DNA of 56,469 nucleotides, taken from Oligoflexia bacterium (lineage in GTDB: Bacteria > Bdellovibrionota > Bacteriovoracia > Bacteriovoracales > Bacteriovoracaceae). Numbering within the stretch: the first letter of the stretch is position 1; every line of letters starts with the position of its first letter. The DNA lies in the NCBI GenBank assembly GCA_015231955.1, contig JADGAN010000037.1, positions 1 through 56,469 on the forward strand. Direction: 5' to 3'. A model generated the notes under the pieces. That model saw only the letters and a list, made by a program, of their open reading frames with translations. It ran no database searches and had not been told where the DNA came from. A program made the translations under genes and the position numbers. Shown here piece after piece: positions 4,183-36,430 of the stretch.

Positions 4183-6273
4183 TTAAATAGGGCCACCCAC
4201 TGCGGTAGTATTACTTTCTAGTAGTGCGTTTTCAATTTTTCCTTGCTTTAATCGCAGGAGCGTGAGTTCTTTTTTCCAGTGGTTATCAATAAGTGACCAA
4301 TCTCCTCCAATGGCCTCGACTCTTCCCAGGCGATGAAGGTAATCATGAAATTCTGCCCGTGCCGAAAAGTTTCCGCTCCCAAGCACCTTAAGTAAAACCC
4401 TTAAGGAGTTATAGGACATGATTTCAATCAACTTTGGATCGCGCCCATACCTTGAATTAAAATAGGCAACAAATCCCCTTTCTTCGTCCCTATAATCATC
4501 CCCAACAAAGTAGAGAGTCTGTCGGTCACTAAATTTGGCCAGCCCCTGGCTCCTCCAACTAGGACCACCACAAAAACGTACCCGTGGAGTATCAAAATAT
4601 TTAAAGGTAGGAATCACTCTTTGCGCTTCATCTGGATAGGCGGTGGTAAAGATCCAATCAAAATCGATCACCGGTGGCAACGACTGAGTTCGTAGTTGCC
4701 CCATCTTGCTTGTAAGCGAGACAATGCCCGAAAAAATATCGACCTCCTCCTGGCGTTCACGCTCAAAATCCAGCCCTAAAATCTTCTTAATAGGCCCACG
4801 ATAGTCGTTTTGATTCTTCTCGTAGGCTTGAGCAGAGGTGATCACAACTCCCTTATCCTTGTCCTGGGAGAGGTTCCAAATGGCATCCACATAATTTTCC
4901 CCACGCTCATCTCCTGAGTAAAAAAGCGCCAGCCTCCGTCCAAATTTGTCCAAGACCTCCTTGGACAGGAGTGTACTGACTTGGGACTCCACTGATCCCG
5001 GAACCTCTAACAGCAAAAAATCTTTCTCTGCTGTTGGTAAATAGACTGGTGAAAGCGAAATGAAAAAGACGCCAAAGCGCTTTGCCATCAAATACTCCTG
5101 CGTTGCCTCCTCTGGAAATAGCCCCCCAATCACTGCAGAGACTTGATACTTGCTCACCAGTTCATCGATCATGCCACCACCAATGGCACCACTGCCCTGA
5201 CTATCTCGAACATGAAATTTGGTTGCCTGTAAAGCACCGCCTCCCCCTGGAGTTTTCGTAATAAACTCCTGAAAAGCACTATCGATTCCCGCCATCGCTT
5301 GCTCTGCAAATCGTGCCTTCTCTCCAGAAAAGGGAAAAACCACTCCCACATTTAGTGGTGAAATTTGTGACAGCTTCTCCAAGCGATTTTCATATTCGTT
5401 AATATAGCTCATGATCTCTTTGCTCTCTTGAAAGCGGCCACTTAAGTGGGCCAATAAATCCCGGGCCTCCTCTTTTTGCCCTCTATAAATAAGTCGTTCT
5501 GCCGTCGGTACTCCTAAATAGGCAAGTATGGCCGCCGCAGCAGCATCTTCATTACTATTGCGGTTAATAAAATAGTTCAGAGCAGTCATCCGCTCCTGAT
5601 CTTCAGCGCGATTAAAAACCTCCATTAATGTTGAGAAAAGCCCATCACTCTTGAGTGCACCCATATCGCGATATTTTTTTAAGTAATCAATCAAGAGCTG
5701 CATCTTCTCTGTTAGAGCGCCACTGCTACCATGCTGCTCCTCTAGTAAAAGAAATTTCAAGCGATAAACTTTTGTAAGCTCTACCTCTTTTAAAATCTCC
5801 ATCTTTACTTGCGAAAGTGCATGTTGAAACTCAGCAATCTGTCTTTGTTTGTAAGCTGTACTTGCAAGATTAATATAGACTTGAGAGGAGAGTGAATCAT
5901 CTTCAATGGCAAGAGGGGCCGCCTCGACAAAACTCTCGCGCGCCTCAACCATCCTTCCTTCACTAAAAAAGATCACACCCCGAAGGTTTAATCTCATGGC
6001 CTTTTCTGTTGGCAGAAGTTTGGCATCTTTAATCGCCATTAACCTCTTTAAGGCCAAGGCCTGTTTTCCAGACTCATAGATGGACTTGATCTCCTGAATC
6101 TTCTTTAAAAATTGTTCGCTATAAAGTGCGGAAGAAGAGGAGGAGGATGCCGCCTCTCTTACAGTCTCTTTCTCTTTTTTACTCACCGTAGAGACTTGGG
6201 AACAACCAGCAGCAACAAAAATCAAAATTAAAACGAAAACTAAAGATAACGACAATGCTGAAAATTTTTTCAT
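4183..6273 (-). CDS. LpoA-like penicillin-binding protein activator lipoprotein (TPR plus type 1 periplasmic-binding fold)
   Basis: A 696-aa lipoprotein with signal sequence and lipobox VAAGC (cysteine 24). Residues about 45-290 are alpha-helical with TPR-like spacing (for example NLRGVIFFSEGRMVEARESF). From about residue 305 (LNVGVVFPFSG) to near the end it resembles the type 1 periplasmic-binding fold used by LpoA/YraM and branched-chain amino-acid receptors. In LpoA this architecture reaches through the outer membrane and activates PBP1A, so a peptidoglycan-synthesis cofactor is the likely role. A ligand-binding receptor is the alternative, but no transporter genes are nearby. It is transcribed alone; dnaJ lies 96 bases upstream. 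Confidence 0.75.
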   Translation of the reverse strand: MKKFSALSLSLVFVLILIFVAAGCSQVSTVSKKEKETVREAASSSSSSALYSEQFLKKIQEIKSIYESGKQALALKRLMAIKDAKLLPTEKAMRLNLRGVIFFSEGRMVEARESFVEAAPLAIEDDSLSSQVYINLASTAYKQRQIAEFQHALSQVKMEILKEVELTKVYRLKFLLLEEQHGSSGALTEKMQLLIDYLKKYRDMGALKSDGLFSTLMEVFNRAEDQERMTALNYFINRNSNEDAAAAAILAYLGVPTAERLIYRGQKEEARDLLAHLSGRFQESKEIMSYINEYENRLEKLSQISPLNVGVVFPFSGEKARFAEQAMAGIDSAFQEFITKTPGGGGALQATKFHVRDSQGSGAIGGGMIDELVSKYQVSAVIGGLFPEEATQEYLMAKRFGVFFISLSPVYLPTAEKDFLLLEVPGSVESQVSTLLSKEVLDKFGRRLALFYSGDERGENYVDAIWNLSQDKDKGVVITSAQAYEKNQNDYRGPIKKILGLDFERERQEEVDIFSGIVSLTSKMGQLRTQSLPPVIDFDWIFTTAYPDEAQRVIPTFKYFDTPRVRFCGGPSWRSQGLAKFSDRQTLYFVGDDYRDEERGFVAYFNSRYGRDPKLIEIMSYNSLRVLLKVLGSGNFSARAEFHDYLHRLGRVEAIGGDWSLIDNHWKKELTLLRLKQGKIENALLESNTTAVGGPI

Positions 6274-6369
6274 GCGGTGCTAACCTCAAACAAAAATGGC
6301 AGACTACCTTTTATTGCAGAATTGCAGATTCTAGTTAGTATAGTGCCGAGCAAATGAGAAAGAAATAGC

Positions 6370-7536
6370 TTAGGAAAAGAGTTCCTTCACTTTTTCAAAA
6401 AAGTTTGAAGAGATCGGATGGGAGTTACCTTTACGTTCAAGCACTGCTAGCTTTTCAAAAAGGTCGCGCTGCTCACCTGTCAGTTTGGATGGGGTCTCCA
6501 CTTGAATATTAATAATCTGATCACCAAAGGCCTGCCCCCCTAACTGCTGAATCCCTTTTGCCTTAAGACGCATCTTCTTTCCCGATTGCGTTCCCGAAGG
6601 GATCTTTACGGCAACTTTCCCCCGCAGCGTGGGAACTTCGATCTCTGCGCCCAATGCCGCCTGTGAAAAGCTGATCGGTATACTGCAAAACACATCCATG
6701 CCGTCACGCTCAAAGATATCGTGTCGCAAAATATTAACCCCAATATAGAGGTCTCCACTAGGCCCTCCATAAAGTCCAGCGTCGCCTTCACCACTAAGTT
6801 TTAAGCGCTGACCACTATTAATTCCGGCAGGAACCTTCACTTGCAAATCGGACTTATGTTTTTTACGTCCCTGCCCACCACAATCGCGGCAAGGATCGGT
6901 GACAATGTGGCCACTACCATAACACTTTGGACAAGTTGTTGCGATTGCAAAAAATCCTTGCTGCCGCCTTACTTCACCATATCCATTACATTGATCACAA
7001 ACGGAAGGACCTGTTCCAGGTTTAGAGCCTTGCCCTGCGCACGTTTTACACTCAAAATTTTTCAGGACTGAAATATTTTTTTCAGCACCAAACGCCGCCT
7101 CTTCAAACGTGATGTCGACCATCATCTCTAAGTCTTGACCTCCACGGGCGCGTGAACCGCGGCCACCTCCACCTCGACGGCGACGACCACCACCGGCCCC
7201 GCCACCCATGAAATCAAAATCACCAAAGATGTCACCGAAAATATTACCAAGATTAGAGAAGATATCCTCCGTATTAAAACCTTCACCACCACCATAAAAG
7301 CCACTCATCCCCGAGTGGCCAAATTGATCGTAGCGAGCACGCTTCTCGTCGTCCAACAACACCTCAGCGGCCTCCGAGGCCTCTTTAAATTTTGCCTCGG
7401 CCTCTTTATTGTTAGGATTGCGGTCAGGATGAAATTGTAAAGCAAGCTTGCGGTACGCTTTCTTAATATCATCCTTTCCCGCACCCTTTTGGACGCCAAG
7501 AATTTCGTAGTAATCTCTCTTATTAGTCGTGCTCAT
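6370..7536 (-). CDS. dnaJ: Chaperone protein DnaJ (Hsp40)
   Basis: A 388-aa class I J-protein. The J domain has HPD at residues 36-38, followed by a Gly/Phe-rich linker with a basic glycine patch (about 110-132). The zinc region has all four CxxCxGxG repeats ([32 protein letters not shown]), then the substrate-binding C-terminal domains. It stimulates the DnaK ATPase and hands over unfolded clients in the cytoplasm. It is the last gene of a grpE-dnaK-dnaJ operon, 62 bases after dnaK. Confidence 0.97.
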
Positions 7537-19549: not shown

Positions 19550-19560
19550 AGCAAGATGTA

Positions 19561-19574
19561 TTGACTTAAGTCAA
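19561..19574. promoter_or_regulatory. FNR/CRP-family operator palindrome before the CODH operon
   Basis: TTGACTTAAGTCAA is a perfect 14-base palindrome that matches the general TTGAN6TCAA/TTGAC-N4-GTCAA site of FNR, Dnr and other CRP-family regulators. It is 65 bases before the hemerythrin start codon, and a TATAAA sequence at 19607-19612 could serve as the -10 box, placing the palindrome about 50 bases before the likely transcript start. The regulator itself is not in this window. Confidence 0.65.
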
Positions 19575-19638
19575 TCAGTTTAAGATGAAAAGATGGAAGA
19601 ATAGAGTATAAATTCATTGGAAAACGAAGGAGAAGATA

Positions 19639-20187
19639 ATGAACGTTACTCAAAGACTTAAAGATGAACATCAATTAATTTTAAAATATGTGGCGCTGTT
19701 AGACCGCTACCTGCGGGCCATGAGAAGTAATGCTGCAAAGAGAACATCACTAGCACCCAAACTTTACCAATTTATTTCATTCATCCAAGAGTTCGCGGAC
19801 AAGTACCATCACGCCAAGGAGGAGAATATTCTCTTCCAATATATGGAACGCCCCCATGTGCTTGCCCATTGTAATCCACTACCCCAAATGCTATATGAGC
19901 ATGACAATGGACGGACGTATGTTCAAGAAATGATCGCGGCGCTCGAGAAAAATGAAATTGAAAGCGCTATCACGAGTGCTTATGGATGGCTACATTTGTT
20001 AAGCGATCATATCCATAAAGAAGATAATATTCTCTACCCCATGGGTGAAGAGGGCCTAAACGAAGAGGATAAGCAAGAAATTTTAAAAGATTACGCGCAA
20101 GCAGAAGAGAAGCATCGTGGGGCCGAACTTGAGGCCAAGTACCGCGCTCTCTTAAGTGATTTGGAACGTGAATTAGAGCATGACTAA
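19639..20187 (+). CDS. Hemerythrin-like HHE-domain protein
   Basis: A 182-aa all-helical cytoplasmic protein. The di-iron ligand set is present: H11 in DEHQ, H58 and E62 in HHAKEE, H88 in EHDN, and H124 with E128 in HIHKEDNILYP. Such proteins bind oxygen, nitric oxide or reactive species at a non-heme di-iron site, or store iron. The stop codon overlaps the start of cooC by eight bases, so it is firmly part of the CODH operon; an oxygen-scavenging or sensing role that shields the oxygen-sensitive CO dehydrogenase is an attractive inference. Start ATG follows AAGGAG at good spacing. Confidence 0.88.
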   Translation: MNVTQRLKDEHQLILKYVALLDRYLRAMRSNAAKRTSLAPKLYQFISFIQEFADKYHHAKEENILFQYMERPHVLAHCNPLPQMLYEHDNGRTYVQEMIAALEKNEIESAITSAYGWLHLLSDHIHKEDNILYPMGEEGLNEEDKQEILKDYAQAEEKHRGAELEAKYRALLSDLERELEHD

Positions 20188-20953
20188 TCGAGGAATAAAG
20201 ATAGCAGTGGCCGGCAAAGGTGGTGTAGGGAAAACCATATTCTCTACACTCCTTGCGCACTATTTTTCCCGTCAAAACCACCAAGTGTATGCGATTGATG
20301 CCGATCCCGATGGTAGTTTACTCTTTGCTCTTGGAGCAACAGAGGAGGAGAGGAGTGCGCTTGTTCCTCTGATTGAGATGAAAGCACTGATCGAAGAGCG
20401 CATGGGTGTTGGTGGGTATTACCCCTTAAATCCTCCCGTAGAAGACTTAATCGAAAAGGTTGCAATTAGCATCGGAAAAATTAAAGTTTTGCAAATGGGA
20501 GGCAGCAAGCGAGGAGGAGAGTCCTGCTACTGTCGAGAAAACACTTTTTTACAAGCGATGGTAAACTCACTCCTTTGGAAAACGAGTGATGTGGTGATTT
20601 TGGATATGGGTGCTGGAATTGAACATCTAACCAGAGGAACCGCAAAAGGCGTCGATGCCCTCGTGATTGTAGTAGAACCCACCCTCAATAGCTGTGCCAT
20701 GGGAAAAACCATCAAACAGCTAGCGGCCGATTTAGAGATCAAGAGTATCGTTTATCTCGCCAACAAAATAAGAGGCCATCAAGAGCGAGCATTTGTTTTG
20801 GAACAACTTCAAGGGGAGCAAATCCTTGGTACGCTTCCTTATGAGGAAAAGATCAACACTCTTTATAGGGTCGCTGGAAAACGCACTGATTTTGAATTTG
20901 CTAGCGATTTTGATTATTCGCTACAAAACATTGCAAAATTAATTTTAAAATAA
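20180..20953 (+). CDS. cooC: CO dehydrogenase maturation ATPase CooC
   Basis: A 257-aa MinD/ParA-type ATPase. The P-loop reads GKGGVGKT (residues 12-19, with the signature lysine 13), the Walker B-like stretch is VVILDMGAG, and the CooC-specific CxC pair is at 116-118 (SCYC). In CooC the CxC pair at the dimer interface binds nickel or zinc and ATP hydrolysis drives nickel insertion into the C-cluster of CODH. It is nested between the hemerythrin gene (8-base overlap) and cooS (9-base gap). Confidence 0.93.
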   Translation: MTNRGIKIAVAGKGGVGKTIFSTLLAHYFSRQNHQVYAIDADPDGSLLFALGATEEERSALVPLIEMKALIEERMGVGGYYPLNPPVEDLIEKVAISIGKIKVLQMGGSKRGGESCYCRENTFLQAMVNSLLWKTSDVVILDMGAGIEHLTRGTAKGVDALVIVVEPTLNSCAMGKTIKQLAADLEIKSIVYLANKIRGHQERAFVLEQLQGEQILGTLPYEEKINTLYRVAGKRTDFEFASDFDYSLQNIAKLILK

Positions 20954-20962
20954 AGAGTAAAT

Positions 20963-22870
20963 ATGAGTAGTAGTAGTAGTAATAGTAGTAATAATAATGA
21001 TGATCAAATGCTAAAGAGGGCGCGTGAGCTTGGAATCGTGACGGCCGCAGATCGCTACCGGGCGCAAACTCCCAAGTGCCAATTTGGAGAGACAGGTATT
21101 TGCTGTACCGTTTGTTTGCAAGGCCCTTGCCGGATTACTAAAAAACCAGGAATGGACAGAGGAGTTTGCGGTGCTAATGCCGACACCATCGTTGCAAGAA
21201 ATTTGGTGAGGCACCTCGTATTTGGTGCCGCTGGACACTCCGATCATGCACGCGAAATGGTGCTGGCACTAAAGGGTGTCGGAGAAGGAAGCGTCAAAGA
21301 TTATAAAATTTCCGATCCTAAAAAGCTTCAGCATCTAGCAGAAAAACTAGGTCTAACAGATGCACAAACACAAGATGAAAAAGCATTAGCACTCTTCGTG
21401 GCCAATAAGTGTTTGCAAGATTTTTGGAAATATGATGCCTCTCCTTGTCTATGGTCACAAGCAAACCTCGATGCCAAAGCACTGGCTAAATTGCAAGAGA
21501 TTGCTATTCTTCCCTCGGCCATTGATCGTGAGATTGTACATATTTTACACCAACTCAACATGGGCACCGATGCTGATCCCTTCAATATTTTGCTCTCGGG
21601 ACTACGAGCGGGCATGATCGATTTTACAGGAATGTCGATGGCCACTGCAGTAACCGATATTTTATTTGGAGTCCCTTATCCCGTAGTCACAGAAGCAAAT
21701 TTGGGTGTGCTGAAAAAAACGCAAATCAACATTGCCGTTCATGGGCACAACCCCCTTTTAAGTCAAGTCATCGTCTATGCTGCCAAAGAGTTACATAAGG
21801 AGGCCTTAGAGGCCGGTGCCTCCGAAGGCATCAATATTGTCGGGATTTGTTGCACGGGCAATGAACTGCTGATGAGAGAGGGAATCACCAGTGTGGCCAA
21901 CTATGGAACACAAGAGTTGGCCGTGATCACAGGGGTACTCGATGCCATGGTTGTCGATGTTCAATGTATTAATCCTGCACTCAAAGAGATTTGCCAAGCT
22001 TTTCACACCACCTTAATCACCACCTCCCCACGCGCGAAAATGAGTGGAGTTATGCATGTGGAGTTTGAGACCACAAGCGCACTAGAAAGCGCTTTACGCA
22101 TTACCAGAGAGGCCATTGCAAGTTTTAAAAGACGAGACGATACACTCATTCACATTCCAGATTATAAAGCAGAGGTGATCGGTGGTTTTAGTGTCGAGGC
22201 GATGCTGGCACTCTTTGCAAAAATAGAGTGCGATCATCCCATGCGAGTGCTCGCCAATGCGATCAGCAACAAAACCATCAAAGGCATCTGTGCCTTTATC
22301 GGTTGCAACAACCACCGTGTAGAACAAGACCAAAATATTACCACCATGGCCCGAGAGTTAGCACAAAAAGATGTCTTCATCCTCTCTACAGGATGCGCCT
22401 CCGGGGCCTTAGCAAAAGCAGGCCTTATGTCCTCTTTGGCGGTAGAAAAATATGCAGGTCCTGGGCTCAAACATTTTCTAAAACAGCTAGAGGCCAAATC
22501 CACACTAGCGTGTGGACTCCCTTTGGTCTTTAATATGGGCGCCTGTGTGGACAACAGTCGTGTAGCTTTGCTATGGAAACTCCTTGCCGAAGAGATGAAC
22601 CTTCCCCTTTCTTGCTTACCGGTTGTCGCCAGCTCCCCTGAAATCATGTCAGAAAAAGCGCTCGCCATCGGTTGCTGGATGGTTGCCATTGGGGTTCCGG
22701 TAGTGGTCAGCATTCCTCTTCCCGTTACTGGCAGTGCTTATGTAACGGAGTTACTAACCACAAAATTAAAAGATATTGTTGGTGGATATTTTTCCATAGA
22801 ACCAGATCCCCTGGCCGCTACCAAAATCATCGATGGCATTTTACAAGAACGCATTTTAAAAACTTGCTGA
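20963..22870 (+). CDS. cooS: Anaerobic nickel carbon-monoxide dehydrogenase catalytic subunit CooS
   Basis: A 635-aa CODH that oxidises CO to CO2 (or the reverse). The D-cluster cysteines are C39 and C47 and the B-cluster cysteines C48, C51, C56 and C69, all in the N-terminal CQFGETGICCTVC...CRI region. C-cluster ligands are present in order: H260, a cysteine in GICCTGNE (296/297), C335, C448, C478 and C528. The catalytic lysine is in EIMSEKALAIG (565). The protein is therefore expected to be active. The N-terminus carries a Ser/Asn run encoded by AGT/AAT triplets. No CooF ferredoxin, Ech or Coo hydrogenase, or acetyl-CoA synthase is encoded nearby, so its electron acceptor is unknown. Confidence 0.96.
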   Translation: MSSSSSNSSNNNDDQMLKRARELGIVTAADRYRAQTPKCQFGETGICCTVCLQGPCRITKKPGMDRGVCGANADTIVARNLVRHLVFGAAGHSDHAREMVLALKGVGEGSVKDYKISDPKKLQHLAEKLGLTDAQTQDEKALALFVANKCLQDFWKYDASPCLWSQANLDAKALAKLQEIAILPSAIDREIVHILHQLNMGTDADPFNILLSGLRAGMIDFTGMSMATAVTDILFGVPYPVVTEANLGVLKKTQINIAVHGHNPLLSQVIVYAAKELHKEALEAGASEGINIVGICCTGNELLMREGITSVANYGTQELAVITGVLDAMVVDVQCINPALKEICQAFHTTLITTSPRAKMSGVMHVEFETTSALESALRITREAIASFKRRDDTLIHIPDYKAEVIGGFSVEAMLALFAKIECDHPMRVLANAISNKTIKGICAFIGCNNHRVEQDQNITTMARELAQKDVFILSTGCASGALAKAGLMSSLAVEKYAGPGLKHFLKQLEAKSTLACGLPLVFNMGACVDNSRVALLWKLLAEEMNLPLSCLPVVASSPEIMSEKALAIGCWMVAIGVPVVVSIPLPVTGSAYVTELLTTKLKDIVGGYFSIEPDPLAATKIIDGILQERILKTC

Positions 22871-23010: not shown

Positions 23011-24282
23011 ATGCGAAACCCCCTCATCATAAGAGGCGCACGACAGGTTGGCAAATCAACTTTAGTCCATCTTTTCTGCAAACAAGAGAACATCACATTG
23101 CTCGAGATGAATCTCGAGATCGAGTCTCTCAAGTCCATTCATCATGAAAACTTTAAATTGCAATCACTCTTAGATGAGATACAACTCAAAAAACGATGTA
23201 AAATCGACAAGAATACGCTTATCTTTTTTGATGAAATCCAGGAATCACCACGACTCCTTAAACTTCTTCGATATTTTTATGAAGAGGCCCCCCATCTAAA
23301 AATAATGGCCGCGGGTTCTCTTTTAGAGATTACTTTAAAGTCAGAAAATTTCTCTTTTCCTGTAGGCCGGGTTGAGTTTTATCATTTAGGACCGCTCTCC
23401 TTTCGAGAGTTTTTATTAGCAACCAGTCGTGAATTTTTAGATGAAAAACTTTTAAACTTTGATTTTTCTGAAGAGGTTCACCAAGAGGGAATCAATGCTT
23501 TACGAGAATACTTCTATGTAGGTGGGATGCCTCAGGCGGTAAAAGAGTTTAGTGAGAGTCAGGGCCTTCTCGAAATGAGAAGAATCCAATCACAAATTAT
23601 TCAAACCTACCAGATGGATTTTCCAAAGTATAACCGGCGGATTAATCTTGATAGGATCTCTCGCATCTTTTCTTCAATGGCACTTCATATTGGCAAAAAA
23701 GTGATTTATTCAAAAATAGATGCAGAGTCAAGTTCTCGCGATACCAAAAGAGTTTTAGAGATCTTGATGGATGCCAGAGTTCTTCTCCCTTGCATCCACT
23801 CTTGTGGAAATAATTCACCTTTGGCGGGTGAATCTGATCCTGCAATTTTAAAGACATACTTTATAGATATTGGTCTTTTAGGTGCAATGCTGAATTTAGA
23901 TTTAGAAACTATCGATTATGAATTTAAAAATTTATTCAATTTAAGAGGGTGTTTGGCAGAACAATTTGTAGCACAACACCTCTTCTTTGCTAACTCCGAA
24001 TACTCACTTCCCTCTCTCTTTTATCATTTAAGAGATAAGGGGACACAAAAAGCAGAGATCGACTTTCTTTTTGAAAAAAAATCCAAAATTTATCCAATGG
24101 AGATAAAATCGTCTGCAAAAGGACATTTAAAATCTTTGAAATATTTTTGTGATTCGAAAAAATCTCCAGCAGGCATCAAAATATCGTTAGCACCATACTC
24201 TGTTGAAGAGATGGCCTTTGGTGCTTCTCCTCTCATAAATATCCCTCTTTATGCAATAGAATACTGGATCTCGCGTCAATGA
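23011..24282 (+). CDS. DUF4143 AAA-type ATPase with damaged 5' end
   Basis: A 423-aa open frame starting ATG at 23011. The P-loop GARQVGKST comes at residues 9-17, the Walker B-like FFDEIQES near 75, and a C-terminal DUF4143 domain with a nuclease-like core AEIDFLF...PMEIKSS (D then ExK). The family is common, mobile and of uncertain function; some are suggested antitoxin-like or defence ATPases. It starts too close to the P-loop. The missing N-terminus is encoded just upstream in another frame, from a TTG at 22962 with GGAG before it, interrupted by a TAA at 22971-22973 and put out of frame by a run of five Cs at 23019-23023. The gene is therefore likely a pseudogene or expressed in truncated form. 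Confidence 0.8.
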   Translation: MRNPLIIRGARQVGKSTLVHLFCKQENITLLEMNLEIESLKSIHHENFKLQSLLDEIQLKKRCKIDKNTLIFFDEIQESPRLLKLLRYFYEEAPHLKIMAAGSLLEITLKSENFSFPVGRVEFYHLGPLSFREFLLATSREFLDEKLLNFDFSEEVHQEGINALREYFYVGGMPQAVKEFSESQGLLEMRRIQSQIIQTYQMDFPKYNRRINLDRISRIFSSMALHIGKKVIYSKIDAESSSRDTKRVLEILMDARVLLPCIHSCGNNSPLAGESDPAILKTYFIDIGLLGAMLNLDLETIDYEFKNLFNLRGCLAEQFVAQHLFFANSEYSLPSLFYHLRDKGTQKAEIDFLFEKKSKIYPMEIKSSAKGHLKSLKYFCDSKKSPAGIKISLAPYSVEEMAFGASPLINIPLYAIEYWISRQ

Positions 24283-25478: not shown

Positions 25479-28400
25479 CTAAAAGTAGTTGTAGCTGATG
25501 ACCACTGTCGATCCCTTCGCTGGCACGGGGGTTAATGTTAAAGATTTACCATCCCCCGACAATGTCCAGCCGCTGGTCTCTACACCATTCACACGCACGT
25601 GCACACTTTCTCGAACTAGTGTCCCTGGACAATTAAGTGAAAAGGAGTCCAAAATTTTGGTAATGCTTGCGCTCAAATTTGTGAGCAAGGTCTGTGCAGT
25701 GTCTGTAGTTTTGATAAGATCATTAATGTTTAAATAGAGTCCGCCAATTTTCGCAACTGTCTCTTGATATTTGCTTGCAAGATCTTTACTAGGATTAATC
25801 ACTGCAAACATCTTTAAAAGTGATGGCCGGCCACTTTTCACAGATTGAAAATCGCTAACCCAATAATCGACAGTAGATGCAGATTGCTCATTCTCATCAC
25901 TAAAAATAATAAAAACTAAAGCACGGGAAGAGTCATTCCAAGAAATTGAGGGATTATTGACATAAGCGGACTGAATGGATTTAAACGGCTGCTCCATGGA
26001 AGATCCACGAGTTCCAACATTAACAATATTTTTAAAATTATTGATAAACGTTGTCTTATTTTGGGCCAAAGTGGTGTGATTAAACTGATAGTTTACATCG
26101 CTTGCTACCTTTAAGAATTGTCCTTTATAGTTGTCCGTATCACTGGTGATGAAATACATATTAAATTTATAAGTCACACTCTTGGTGAAATCGTTAATGA
26201 AAGCATCAAAATTATTGGCCAATGCCTGTTGCTCATTACCCATGGAGCTAGAGTTGTCGATAACCCAAAGGATATCCACTCCATTTAGCACACTATCTTC
26301 TGTAATCGTAAAGGTTTCACTCTTGGAATAGTAGTTATCAAGCTTAAAGATTACAGTTGCCACAGCGGATTCTAAATCAGTGTCATCAACAACTTTGTAA
26401 GTAAAAGAGTCCTCTCCACCCACCTCTCCTAAATTAGGATGATACTCACAACTACGAATTCCTTTCGTAATCGCCCCATTGACGAAACAATTTTTCAGCG
26501 CTCCCCGCTTGGGGTTGCTGACCACCACATATTTTAAATTCTCGGCAATAGTATCACCATCACTGGCCTGACTAACCATAAAAGATGCCGGGGTATTAAT
26601 TTTTACAGAAATCGGTGGGGTCTCCTTTGTGGTTGGAGCATAAATGAATTGTTCAATGGTAATAGAAACAGTTGCCAGCGTTTGCGACTCATTTCCCAGC
26701 ACATCTTTTACTTTGTAAGTAAAGAAGTCACTTCCACCTTTGACAGACGGTGTATATTTGCATTCTCTACTGGTCGCTGGACTAAAACAACTTAAATTCC
26801 CGTGCTGTACATTTTCTACCAAAATATAATTTAATCCACTCCTATGCTCAGGGATAGAATCATTTGCTAAAGAGACGCTAAAGCTCTTAGCTTGTCCAAA
26901 TGTCACACTTATACTTTGATTACTCCCCACCGCTGGCGGAGGTAAAATCTTAATGGTGACTATTGCGGGAACTAGCGATTCATTGTTATGGCCATCAACC
27001 ACCACATATTCAAAAGAGTCTTCCCCTCCTGCTTTCATAGTCGTATTGGGTGTATAGAGACAGCTACGATTGGCCATACCTTGAAAGCAACTGCTTAAAG
27101 TACCATTGGTCGGTGGTCGTTTCACTTTGTAGCTAAGGGAGGCCTCTGCCGTCTCCATATCGAATCCTTTGTTAACCAGGAATGATGGGGAGTTTTTATA
27201 TTCTGCCACCACCTCTTGGTCTGCCCCGACTCTTGGTGGATAGGCAATCTTAAAGGTAACCTTTGCCGTCATGTTGGAAACGTTGCCTTTGCTATCGATA
27301 ATTTTATAAGTAAAAGAGTCCTCTGCTGCACTGATGTTGGCATTGGTCGTATAGCTACATGCAAGTGGTGTTGCTCCAGCAAAACAAGTAAGTGTTCCCT
27401 CGGTGACATTTTTTTCAATAACGTAGCTGAGGGACTCTTGAGCGTCATCATAGTCACTACCAGCATTGACATTAAAATTTTGTGTCTTTTGATGTAAAAC
27501 ATTGATGATCTGATTATTGCCAACATGAGGACGATGGAGCAGATTGATAAAAACCGTTGTGGGAAGAGACTCATTACCGAGAGTATCGTAAGCAGCATAA
27601 CTAAAACTATCTCCTAGCGTAGGGGTCGTGCTGGTGTAAAGGCAAGCAAGTCCCATGACATCCATGCAGCTGAGCGATCCGAATTGAGGTTGTTTAATAA
27701 TTTTATACCTCAAAACATGTAGAGGATTGCTATCCAATCCGGCGTTTAAAGAGATGTTACTAAGGCCTGGGTAGTTGTAATTTCCAATCAACAATCCTAC
27801 GCTATCTCCATAATAAAGAGTTATTGGGTCATTTTTTGCAATTGTGGGTGCAGCTAAAATTTTTATATTTACTGTGCTGGGATTAGAGTTGAGCAATCCA
27901 TCGCTTACCGTATATTGGAAGGAGTCACTTCCAGAAGTAATCGTAGGAGTATAAGTACACTCCCGAGCAAAGCAATATAAATTTCCATACTCTGGATATT
28001 TTATAACTGTGTACGTGAGCTTATCCTGTGTACTATCAAGATCAGTGGCGGCGATAATCTCAAAGGGGGGATTTTTATTGTACTCCACCACAACCTCTTG
28101 ACCACTGGCCGCTACCGGTGGGTGGAGCAAGGAAATATTGAAATTCACAGTGATGGGCAACGACTCTTTTTTGCTAAAGTTATCAATAATGGTGTACTTT
28201 AAAGTATCCTCTCCACCATTGGTCGTAGACGTATAGGTGCACCGTCTATTGCTGTTGATAAAACAATCTGTAAGTGTACCCTTTGTTGGCCCAGTATGCA
28301 GTTTATAACTAAAAGTCGGATAAGGATTATCATAGCGCTTGGTTTCTAACTTTCCTTCACTTACATCGAAAATATTGCTACTGCCGTATGCAACGGTAAG

Positions 28401-30014
28401 TTTCATGTCACTGGCAGTAGGCACAAAATCCACGGGACGAATATTTATTGTGACCGTAATCTGATCAGAAACGAGATTCGTGGCCGGATCGATAACTGTA
28501 TAAGTGATTGTTCCCTGGCCACCATTGGAAGTTGGTTTATAGGTACACTCCCGCCCGCCAGCAGCTACAAAACAGTTGCTGACTTCTCCAAGGGAGGAAG
28601 AGTTCAATCTATAGTTAAACTTTTTAGGTGCATCGCTTGGATAGGTGAAATCGCCAGCACTGACCGTAAAGGTAAGAGATGATCCGTAGGTCACCTCAAA
28701 ATTTTGAGCACCTCCTCCCACTGGAGGATTGGCAATGGCATTGATTTTAATATTTACAGTCACTATCTTCGATTCCATCATATCTGCATCCACAACTTTA
28801 TAAGTAAAAGAGTCACTTCCCCCATTGGCCACAGGAGTGTAGTCACAGCTGCGATCATTATAGGATTGTTTGTTGAAGCAGTTACTAAGCTTTCCTTTTG
28901 TAGGCATTTGCACCACCTGATATTTTAGAAAAAAAGCATCTGGAGGATAAGGGTAGCTTGCTTGTGGCACTTCAAAATTAAGTGTGGAGTTGTAGGTGGC
29001 CGTGAGGGATTGACCCTCAAAGGCCACTGGATTAAAAAGCTGCTTTTTAATCTTAATAGTGACGGTTGCGGTATTTTTTGATTCCATACCATCGGGGTCG
29101 ATGATCTTATAAGAAAAAACATCGCTTCCTCCATTGATGGAAGGGGTATATTCACAAGCACGCGAATTGTGGGTTGGAAAGCACGTAAGCGTTCCTTTTT
29201 CCGGAGCAGTGGCCACCACATACTTTAACTCTTCTATTGGTGAATCGAGATCGCTCCCCTGACTTACTTCAAACTGAATCGAGGATTGAAAGTCAACGAC
29301 GAGGGTTTGATCTGCGCCCACTACCGGAGGAGGATAATACTTTTTGATGGTAATCGTAACTTTAACTTCCTGAGAAGCTGCTCCCTCCTTATCCACAACT
29401 TTATAGGTTAATGTATCCACACCCCGATCGACAGTCGGAGTATAAATACAACTTCTAACTCCTAAACCTTGGAAACACTCTTTTAGTTTCCCTAGGGCCG
29501 GTTCCTGAACCACCAGATACCTGAGATCTTCTGCCGCCGTATCCACATCAGTGGCCGGATTGACTTCAAAATTTAAGACTTCATTCGAATAAACGGTAAA
29601 ATTTTGTTCTTTACTGTTATCGACCACTGGAGCATCCGCAACCGCTTCCACCATAAAAGTCACTGTAGTCGGTGAAGAGACTTGAAAGTCTCCATCATTT
29701 GAAACCACCTTAAAACTATCCTCCCCATTATAATCTTTATCGGGAGTATAGGTACATCTTAAGATGTTTTTATCCCCATTGCAGTTGGATAGTTTTCCAT
29801 GTTTGGGTTCACTAATGATATGAATTTGTGGATCGACCATTTGATCATCAACGTGGAGTGCAACAAACCCAAAAGAAAAGGCGGTATCTTCTTGGAGATT
29901 AAAAGTCACGTCTTCCCCTGGGGTAACTTGAATCATCTTGCCGTATTTTGGATCCGGAGGCATACAAGCAGCAAGCATAAACAAAAGCAACGACAAGATG
30001 ATAAATTTATTCAT
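25479..30014 (-). CDS. Giant surface lipoprotein: twelve Cys-paired Ig/cadherin-like repeats plus vWA domain
   Basis: A 1511-aa protein with signal peptide and lipobox LAAC (cysteine 17). Residues about 30-1240 are twelve repeats of roughly 90-105 residues, each of the type P-V-G-(A/G)-x-Q ... LxY(V/K)V ... G-x-L-(x)-C ... R-x-C-x-Y-T-P ... G-x-D-x-F-x-Y-K-V-x-D ... V-x-I-x-I, resembling bacterial Ig-like/cadherin-like tandem modules. All twelve keep one cysteine pair, so each is probably disulfide-pinned outside the cell. A vWA domain follows (DILWVIDNSSSMG, a MIDAS DxSxS motif, about residue 1250), then a short C-terminal beta module. The architecture suggests a metal-dependent adhesin or cell-cell contact protein. 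It has its own promoter region upstream of 30014. Confidence 0.8.
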   Translation of the reverse strand: MNKFIILSLLLFMLAACMPPDPKYGKMIQVTPGEDVTFNLQEDTAFSFGFVALHVDDQMVDPQIHIISEPKHGKLSNCNGDKNILRCTYTPDKDYNGEDSFKVVSNDGDFQVSSPTTVTFMVEAVADAPVVDNSKEQNFTVYSNEVLNFEVNPATDVDTAAEDLRYLVVQEPALGKLKECFQGLGVRSCIYTPTVDRGVDTLTYKVVDKEGAASQEVKVTITIKKYYPPPVVGADQTLVVDFQSSIQFEVSQGSDLDSPIEELKYVVATAPEKGTLTCFPTHNSRACEYTPSINGGSDVFSYKIIDPDGMESKNTATVTIKIKKQLFNPVAFEGQSLTATYNSTLNFEVPQASYPYPPDAFFLKYQVVQMPTKGKLSNCFNKQSYNDRSCDYTPVANGGSDSFTYKVVDADMMESKIVTVNIKINAIANPPVGGGAQNFEVTYGSSLTFTVSAGDFTYPSDAPKKFNYRLNSSSLGEVSNCFVAAGGRECTYKPTSNGGQGTITYTVIDPATNLVSDQITVTINIRPVDFVPTASDMKLTVAYGSSNIFDVSEGKLETKRYDNPYPTFSYKLHTGPTKGTLTDCFINSNRRCTYTSTTNGGEDTLKYTIIDNFSKKESLPITVNFNISLLHPPVAASGQEVVVEYNKNPPFEIIAATDLDSTQDKLTYTVIKYPEYGNLYCFARECTYTPTITSGSDSFQYTVSDGLLNSNPSTVNIKILAAPTIAKNDPITLYYGDSVGLLIGNYNYPGLSNISLNAGLDSNPLHVLRYKIIKQPQFGSLSCMDVMGLACLYTSTTPTLGDSFSYAAYDTLGNESLPTTVFINLLHRPHVGNNQIINVLHQKTQNFNVNAGSDYDDAQESLSYVIEKNVTEGTLTCFAGATPLACSYTTNANISAAEDSFTYKIIDSKGNVSNMTAKVTFKIAYPPRVGADQEVVAEYKNSPSFLVNKGFDMETAEASLSYKVKRPPTNGTLSSCFQGMANRSCLYTPNTTMKAGGEDSFEYVVVDGHNNESLVPAIVTIKILPPPAVGSNQSISVTFGQAKSFSVSLANDSIPEHRSGLNYILVENVQHGNLSCFSPATSRECKYTPSVKGGSDFFTYKVKDVLGNESQTLATVSITIEQFIYAPTTKETPPISVKINTPASFMVSQASDGDTIAENLKYVVVSNPKRGALKNCFVNGAITKGIRSCEYHPNLGEVGGEDSFTYKVVDDTDLESAVATVIFKLDNYYSKSETFTITEDSVLNGVDILWVIDNSSSMGNEQQALANNFDAFINDFTKSVTYKFNMYFITSDTDNYKGQFLKVASDVNYQFNHTTLAQNKTTFINNFKNIVNVGTRGSSMEQPFKSIQSAYVNNPSISWNDSSRALVFIIFSDENEQSASTVDYWVSDFQSVKSGRPSLLKMFAVINPSKDLASKYQETVAKIGGLYLNINDLIKTTDTAQTLLTNLSASITKILDSFSLNCPGTLVRESVHVRVNGVETSGWTLSGDGKSLTLTPVPAKGSTVVISYNYF

Positions 30015-34348: not shown

Positions 34349-35100
34349 AATTTATCTTTTTTAACAACAGGGTCGTTTGGAATCGCAACAATATAAACAT
34401 TTCTTGTGAATTCACCGAGATAAAAGAGATCACACCACATCGATGTGAAGCGCTCTGTATTGATTTTAATAATTCCTTTCTTTTTCCCATAGAAGCATGA
34501 ACAAGGATCAGCTAGATAAAGTGTATCAAGAGTCCCTTTAGGACATTTCCCCTCTTCATAACCAGTGGCCAGGGCCCAGTGGCCTCCCCAATCGATCCAC
34601 TCGACCAAAACAGTTCTGCCACTTTGAATTTCGTTTTTTATATCGCGAAGGGATTCTTCTGTACCCCTTCCCGAATTGATTTTAACAGAGAACCCATTCA
34701 TGGAAAGCCAACTTCCCATTTCATCGGGTATGGTTCCCGGATACCGCTTAGATTTATCCCGACTGCCCATTTCAGAAGCAATTTTCATTGCATCCCCGTG
34801 GCGTTTGTAAAAATTCAACAACGTGACAATCGCTGCTGGACCACAGGTGTAGTCTGTTGTTTGTTGGTAGCTTTTACAGTTAAGAATTGTTTTTGATTGA
34901 GGGTAAGGCATCGTTTTTAAACTAGACCACTCCAGCGTTTGCGAAAACGAAGGTAATTGTAATGACTGCAGAGAGAAATAAGGCAATAATCTATTCACTT
35001 TAAAAGTACCTCCACTAGCATTGTGAGCAATCTTAAGGGGAAGCTGGAACAGGGCCGCCCTTGCTTTGCGAGATAAGAATAATAGTTCTAAAAAAGACAT
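34345..35100 (-). CDS. C39-like (papain-fold) cysteine protease
   Basis: A 251-aa protein with the C39/peptidase_C39_2 catalytic set: C86 in DYTCGPAA, H174 in GGHWALATGY and D198 in LADPCSC. The first 60 residues are weakly amphipathic and may be a membrane or export segment; there is no clear ribosome binding site at the ATG at 35100, and an internal ATG at M64 is an alternative start. C39 enzymes typically cleave double-glycine leaders, but this one has no ABC transporter attached. Its last codon and stop were created by insertion of the adjacent MITE; the pre-insertion frame reads five codons further to a TAA. Confidence 0.72.
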   Translation of the reverse strand: MSFLELLFLSRKARAALFQLPLKIAHNASGGTFKVNRLLPYFSLQSLQLPSFSQTLEWSSLKTMPYPQSKTILNCKSYQQTTDYTCGPAAIVTLLNFYKRHGDAMKIASEMGSRDKSKRYPGTIPDEMGSWLSMNGFSVKINSGRGTEESLRDIKNEIQSGRTVLVEWIDWGGHWALATGYEEGKCPKGTLDTLYLADPCSCFYGKKKGIIKINTERFTSMWCDLFYLGEFTRNVYIVAIPNDPVVKKDKL

Positions 35101-35128
35101 ATTTTATGCTATAATTAGAACTATTATT
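35078..35128. promoter_or_regulatory. Inverted repeat between divergent C39 and ATPase genes
   Basis: AATAATAGTTCTAA at 35078-35091 and its exact reverse complement at 35115-35128 are 23 bases apart. They span the start codon of the C39-like gene and lie just before the TTG start of the DUF4143 ATPase. This could be an operator shared by the divergent genes, or the hairpin or end of a small mobile element. Confidence 0.45.
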
Positions 35129-35149
35129 ATCACAACCAGGGGTAAGCCA

Positions 35150-36430
35150 TTGAAAAGACGAATTCTAAAATTACTGCACGAGTGGAGAGAATCCCCGACA
35201 AGAACTCCGATAATGATCAGAGGTGCAAGGCAAACAGGCAAAACATGGGTTTGCCGAGAATTTGGAAAGGGGTTTACGACATTCATTGAGATTAATTTAG
35301 AGGTGCAAACGCAACTGCATAGAGTTTTTGATCAGCACTTTGGCGATCCGGAAAAACTCATCAAGCAGCTAGCATTTGAGTTGAAAACAACCATTGTCAA
35401 AGGCGAGACGTTGCTTTTTTTGGATGAGATCCAGGAGTGCGAAAGCGCTATCAAAAGCTTGCGCTACTTTAAAGAGAAATTGCCAGAACTGCATGTAATC
35501 AGCACAGGATCATTGCTGGAATTTAAACTTAAGAGATTGGGCGTTCCCGTAGGGCGAGTCTCTTTTTGTTGGCTTTTTCCAATGAATTTTGAAGAATTTT
35601 TGTGGGCCCATCATGTAGAAAGCGCTTATGATAAAGAGTTGTCTGTAGATGCTATTTTTCAAGAACACCTTGCTCACTACTTGATGATTGGCGGTCTGCC
35701 AGAAGTGGTGGATACATGGATTAAGACGGAAAATCTTTTCGAATGTCAAAATGTTTTGCAACGACTGGCCGGAACTTATCGCACGGATTTCAATCGTTAT
35801 GGGAGCGACAAGGAGATCCGTGTGCTACAGACAATTTTTGATAAAATTCCAAGATATTGGGGACAGAAAACAAAATACTCGCTCTTAAGTGAAAACCATC
35901 GCGCAGTGGAGGTGAAAAATGCAATCGATCTCTTGCGGGATGCGGGACTGGTCTCCCCTTGTTATAAAGTCTCAGGCAATGGACTCCCTCTAAGAGCAGA
36001 GGCAAACTTTGATCACTTTAAATTATTTTCATTAGACTTAGGCCTTGGTCAGCGCCTACTGAATCTTGACTTGAAAAATTATTCCTGGAGCGATTACATT
36101 CACATTGGTGGTCTCATGGAGCAATTTATTGCTGGTGAAATCAGATCATATACAAGCTTAAACTTTGAATCAGAAATTTTCTATTGGCAAAGAGAGCAGA
36201 AGGGCGCTAAGGCAGAGTTGGATTTTATCATCAACAGGGGCACGGAGATCGTTCCCGTAGAGGTTAAAGCAGGAAAAAATCGCCACCACCCAAGCTTGTC
36301 TAAATTCATCGAAGAGAAGAAAAGCTCTTGTGCCATACACCTCTCCGCCCTAGATAATTTTGATTTCCCTTTCTCAAAAGAAAAAATCATCCACTTCATC
36401 CCTTTTTGGAGATTTTTTCAGACGCTCTAG
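35150..36430 (+). CDS. DUF4143 AAA-type ATPase (complete)
   Basis: A 426-aa protein; the start is TTG at 35150 (MKRRILKLLHEW), which gives the N-terminus usual for this family and matches the decayed TTG of the copy at 23 kb. The P-loop is GARQTGKT, Walker B LLFLDEIQE, and the C-terminal DUF4143 domain has the nuclease-like AELDFIINRG...PVEVKAG (D and ExK). Members are widespread single-gene ATPases with unclear role. It lies divergent to the C39-like protease and converges on the ssnA fragment, all between two MITEs. Confidence 0.83.
   Translation: MKRRILKLLHEWRESPTRTPIMIRGARQTGKTWVCREFGKGFTTFIEINLEVQTQLHRVFDQHFGDPEKLIKQLAFELKTTIVKGETLLFLDEIQECESAIKSLRYFKEKLPELHVISTGSLLEFKLKRLGVPVGRVSFCWLFPMNFEEFLWAHHVESAYDKELSVDAIFQEHLAHYLMIGGLPEVVDTWIKTENLFECQNVLQRLAGTYRTDFNRYGSDKEIRVLQTIFDKIPRYWGQKTKYSLLSENHRAVEVKNAIDLLRDAGLVSPCYKVSGNGLPLRAEANFDHFKLFSLDLGLGQRLLNLDLKNYSWSDYIHIGGLMEQFIAGEIRSYTSLNFESEIFYWQREQKGAKAELDFIINRGTEIVPVEVKAGKNRHHPSLSKFIEEKKSSCAIHLSALDNFDFPFSKEKIIHFIPFWRFFQTL

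Follow-up and report, generated by a model that had tools for sequence, protein, structure and literature searches.

A Ni-CO dehydrogenase gene pair joined to a hemerythrin gene behind a predicted HcpR-type promoter box in a member of the Bacteriovoracaceae

Introduction

The HcpR motif of deltaproteobacteria other than Desulfovibrio is TTGACn4GTCAA and lies before hcp and frdX (PMC1274295). The part of that account drawn on here also describes hemerythrin-like genes as frequent members of HcpR regulons, and gives a recognition code for the motif consisting of Pro or Ser at position 180 and Glu at position 181. In Desulfovibrio vulgaris cooSC is under the control of CooA, and cooMKLXUHF carries both CooA sites and predicted HcpR sites (PMC545781). 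In Desulfovibrio desulfuricans the genes with the strongest induction by NO include a cupin-fold gene beside hcp (PMC5701242). Genes for CO dehydrogenase (CODH) and hybrid cluster protein (HCP) often share genomes, with proof of an effect of HCP on CODH activity or expression still missing (PMC13056359).

Here we describe a hemerythrin-cooC-cooS locus in a 56,469-nucleotide contig of an Oligoflexia bacterium, the whole of which is referred to as the window. The system resembles the deltaproteobacterial HcpR regulon in box sequence, in its hcp-frdX target, in having a hemerythrin member and in a regulator gene adjoining hcp whose product has matching recognition residues. It differs in the joining of cooC-cooS to the hemerythrin unit; the part of PMC1274295 drawn on here names no catalytic gene of CODH. 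The coo genes of D. vulgaris (PMC545781) are similar in that a CODH-linked operon carries an HcpR site and that cooS and cooC occur together with cooF not adjacent. However, in D. vulgaris it is the hydrogenase operon that has the HcpR site, which is of a CRP-like form; CooA is present and a hemerythrin is not involved.

Results

Three genes on the forward strand make up the locus: a hemerythrin gene (19639–20187) encoding 182 residues with a single HHE domain, cooC (20180–20953) encoding a 257-residue nickel-insertion ATPase of CODH, and cooS (20963–22870) encoding the 635-residue catalytic subunit of a Ni-CO dehydrogenase. The hemerythrin stop and cooC start overlap by 8 bases (20180–20187) and a gap of 9 bases (20954–20962) separates cooC from cooS, confirming the tight coupling originally described. 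A sigma-70 consensus scan found no promoter inside the hemerythrin gene or cooC, and none at the palindromic box described below; the absence of an internal match weakly supports a single transcript. The genome assembly has 114 contigs, with a completeness of 95% and contamination of 3%. Since the closest hemerythrin homologues come from genomes of the same family, the contig appears to be native to the present lineage. Directly 3' of cooS lies a gene for an AAA-type ATPase with AAA_14 and DUF4143 domains (23011–24282, forward strand), and a second AAA-type ATPase with a similar start is encoded at 35066–36430 (forward strand). Elsewhere in the window an open reading frame at 25479–30014 on the reverse strand encodes a lipoprotein-like protein of 1511 residues with many Ig/cadherin-like repeats and a VWA-like C-terminal part.

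The best solved-structure match of CooC was 3kje (E=3.6e-58), and both the aligned P-loop GKGGVGKT and a CXC motif (CYC, in CYCREN) are present, identifying the protein as a CooC. CooS scored 642 bits against TIGR01702 (curated cut-off 478) and was also assigned by its ligand columns and by tree placement. Every cysteine of the B-, C- and D-clusters is kept, together with H260 and K565, as had been claimed (C39, C47, C48, C51, C56, C69, H260, C296, C335, C448, C478, C528 and K565). Of the proton-relay histidines only H92 and H95, the first two, are retained, and Glu and Leu occupy the following two positions (E98 and L101); histidine is found at position 98 in 17 and at position 101 in 20 of 75 aligned CODHs. 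The nearest relatives of CooS belong to Nitrospirota and Bacillota, the highest identity being 46%, and its branch in the tree is very long (2.06 against a median of 0.16), which may possibly reflect altered activity. The N-terminus (20963–21007) contains a Ser/Asn run arising from AGT/AAT repeats (MSSSSSNSSNNNDDQ); similar runs occur in other proteins of the genome, for example near the N-terminus of an FNR-like protein (L027 8426–9268). Together, cooC and cooS probably encode a functional Ni-CO dehydrogenase pair. The enzyme itself is ordinary; its regulatory placement is unusual.

The hemerythrin protein scored 67 bits against PF01814 (cut-off 25.3), placing it in the HHE family, and its candidate di-iron ligands (H11, H57, E61, H88, H124 and E128) are kept in five homologues. 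It shares with the RIC/YtfE di-iron proteins of iron-sulfur repair the HHE four-helix domain, the pattern of four His and two Glu ligands and a weak sequence match. However, scores far below the equivalog cut-offs (29.6 against 254 and 24.7 against 204.7 bits) and a length of 182 residues compared with 220 for YtfE led to rejection of RIC/YtfE identity. A single-sequence fold prediction was of low confidence (pLDDT 68) and a structure search gave weak matches, the best being 3cax (E=0.068); these carry no weight in the interpretation.

Upstream of the hemerythrin gene lies a perfect palindrome, ATTGACTTAAGTCAAT (19560–19575), which at 16 bases is longer than the 14 first claimed, the first base of its 14-base core being 78 bp before the ATG. 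A possible –10 element, TATAAA (19607–19612, forward strand), is weak and was missed by the sigma-70 consensus scan; if it is used, the box would be centred near –51. Perfect copies of TTGACn4GTCAA are not over-represented in the genome (4 against 3 in a reversed control), and sites with up to one mismatch number 2 in the window against 2.3 expected. The significance of the box thus lies in its position and its conservation in relatives and not in rarity of the sequence. Membership of the FNR/CRP family of sites was upheld, but the more specific label of FNR box was not: FNR sites have the form TTGATn4ATCAA, whereas the half-sites here are TTGAC/GTCAA, the published deltaproteobacterial HcpR form and the form common to the genome's own hcp promoter. 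A strict FNR box was rejected on this basis, as was control by CooA, the box differing from the CooA consensus TGTCGGCn2GCCGACA. The match to the HcpR consensus TTGACn4GTCAA identifies the sequence as a predicted HcpR-type Crp/Fnr box.

Exactly two Prismane-family genes are present in the genome, cooS and a single hcp. The latter has a 4Fe-4S ferredoxin-like gene before it, an order of the FrdX type, and a Crp/Fnr gene facing it. Its promoter box, TTAACTTAGGTCAA, is identical to the cooS-operon box at 12 of 14 bases, with one half-site change (TTAAC). When the surroundings of all nine distinct TTRACn4GTCAA sites in the 5.6 Mb genome were inspected, only two occupied a plain promoter position, before hemerythrin-cooC-cooS and before frdX-hcp, the others lying within open reading frames or at their very start. 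The recognition helix of the hcp-adjacent Crp/Fnr protein, VPETLSR, is identical to that in the relative G127 and agrees with the Pro/Ser-180, Glu-181 code given for TTGACn4GTCAA (PMC1274295), so that a boxed hcp is accompanied by a linked regulator gene with the matching code. Boxes resembling TTGAYn4RTCAA also lie 65–90 bp upstream of the hcp gene or operon in four further genomes of the family (G061, G063, G109 and G127), in each of which a Crp/Fnr gene adjoins hcp, and an imperfect box is found in a fifth (G060). Counting against HcpR control of the cooS operon are the half-site change in the hcp box and the spacing of the putative –10 element, which exceeds that at hcp by approximately one helical turn.

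Full-length cooS was found in only two of 369 genomes of the phylum, that of the window and G060, a third match being a short weak fragment. The G060 gene, 40% identical, is part of an operon of the cooC-cooC-cooS-acsB type (L028 8300–18834), which is followed by other large genes. Acetyl-CoA synthase clusters such as this one are rare in the phylum sample. To look for recurrence of the hemerythrin neighbour, the 80 nearest cooS loci were taken from an alignment query, a contig scan with a single CooS query having returned nothing. No hemerythrin was found in the operon at any of the 80 by phmmer, regular-expression and HHE-profile searches, the scan taking in 77 locus sets in which the cooS open reading frame was re-found, own copies included. 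None stood beside the one other full-length cooS in the phylum. Hemerythrin next to cooS was thus seen in the window genome only, an outcome named beforehand as refuting the original prediction, and hemerythrin was rejected as a recurring CODH partner. In one locus (L047) an open reading frame of the different, bacteriohemerythrin type (5947–6504) lies 3.3 kb from cooS, past a reverse-strand open reading frame. The main text of two large surveys of CODH gene context makes no mention of hemerythrin.

The nearest orthologues of the hemerythrin, with 51–52% identity, are encoded in two genomes of the same family (G126 and G127), and in both a perfect TTGACn4GTCAA precedes the start codon by 72 bp; all further perfect boxes in these genomes lie within open reading frames. 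Behind the hemerythrin gene in both is a small cupin gene and not cooC or cooS. In G063 a homologue of this cupin comes first in a cupin-frdX-hcp operon that has a perfect box of its own. The cupin gene of the window genome (76% identical) is found on contig 49, where no box could be recognised. As the orthologues carry the box with a cupin gene and no cooS behind them, box and hemerythrin most likely represent an older nitrosative-stress unit to which cooC-cooS was added later. More distant hemerythrin genes in the phylum (L153, L155 and L156) adjoin a gene for an Rrf2-type regulator, that in L155 being identified as Rrf2; this regulator is possibly an NsrR-like NO sensor.

Motif scanning and the list of open reading frames revealed no hydrogenase-like, ferredoxin-motif or acs-like gene in the window, in agreement with the original prediction. 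The further description of cooS as lacking a known electron partner holds for the window, where cooF and hydrogenase genes are absent beside cooS, but not for the genome, which has three [NiFe]-hydrogenase loci, none of them linked to cooS. These comprise a TAT-exported type on contig 92, a sulfhydrogenase-like set on contig 52, and on contig 48 an Ech-type set of six genes, with NuoL-, NuoH-, NuoB-, NuoC- and NuoD-like subunits plus a ferredoxin subunit, in which the large subunit keeps both CxxC motifs. It is possible that these unlinked enzymes serve as electron acceptors for CooS. The Ni-CODHs of Nitrospirota and Bacillota (L037–L047, up to 46% identity) belong to the same CooS family and have the same cluster ligands. 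Their cooS genes have a CooF-like ferredoxin gene beside or near them and, in several Nitrospirota, an NAD(P)/FAD oxidoreductase gene as well, whereas the window locus has neither beside cooS and has a hemerythrin gene instead.

Discussion

On balance these data favour, with reasonable but far from complete confidence, a cooC-cooS pair that was acquired and captured behind a nitrosative-stress hemerythrin gene, and that now sits on an HcpR-type promoter in step with hcp. The pair would have been gained by horizontal acquisition, landing directly behind the older hemerythrin gene, and the CODH would then be transcribed with hemerythrin in coordination with hcp. An HcpR-like regulator (contig 37) would bind the box and respond to NO, turning the unit on in nitrosative and anaerobic conditions. 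The hemerythrin may bind NO or O2 and thereby shelter Fe-S enzymes, whilst CooC would load nickel into CooS. CooS in turn would oxidise CO, with a soluble ferredoxin carrying the electrons on to other redox enzymes, for instance the unlinked Ech-type hydrogenase; alternatively, electrons may pass from CooS through the FrdX-like ferredoxin to Hcp. Both the assignment of the box to HcpR and a role for the operon in NO stress are read from gene context and motif comparison and are put forward as predictions.

A rather unlikely alternative is that the box is read mainly by an FNR-like regulator and that the CODH serves anaerobic CO scavenging or is CO-dependent and hydrogenogenic, NO playing no special part. 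The genome does encode a second Crp/Fnr protein, Cys-rich and FNR-like (the L027 protein noted above, encoded on contig 19), which could also read the hemerythrin-cooC-cooS box. It also contains 53 TTGATn4ATCAA sites compared with 9 control sites, and an Ech-type hydrogenase able in principle to accept electrons through ferredoxin. However, the half-sites before hemerythrin are those common to hcp and not those of the TTGAT/ATCAA set, and the box is conserved at hemerythrin orthologues that have no adjacent cooS.

The latter observation bears equally on the original view of the hemerythrin as a built-in guard of the CODH, a dedicated accessory protecting it from, or sensing for it, O2 or NO. 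The 8-base overlap with cooC, the shared promoter and the intact di-iron ligand residues are what such an accessory would be expected to show, but G126 and G127 have the box-hemerythrin unit without a neighbouring cooS, so the hemerythrin did not arise for the benefit of CooS. As the 80 nearest cooS loci lack a hemerythrin in their operons and neither context survey mentions one in its main text, this role is considered very improbable. Least credible of all is a CooS that is no longer mainly CO-active and itself serves nitrosative stress by Hcp-like chemistry, since regulation shared with hcp, homology to Hcp, the long branch and the hydroxylamine reductase activity acquired by C-cluster variants (PMC6344411) are set against retention of every C-cluster ligand, H260, K565 and the nickel-insertion gene cooC.

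Capture of cooC-cooS by an HcpR-type promoter thus remains the preferred reading. A more speculative extension, which we regard as quite doubtful, is that the CODH works in nitrosative-stress defence, Hcp receiving low-potential electrons from CO oxidation by way of an FrdX-type ferredoxin and the co-transcribed hemerythrin serving as an NO trap. If true, this would tie CODH to the hybrid cluster protein both in regulation and in metabolism. The window genome offers a concrete and testable case in which CODH and hcp have a common promoter box, and one in which a CODH appears to have entered a lineage with few such enzymes and come under a pre-existing stress promoter.
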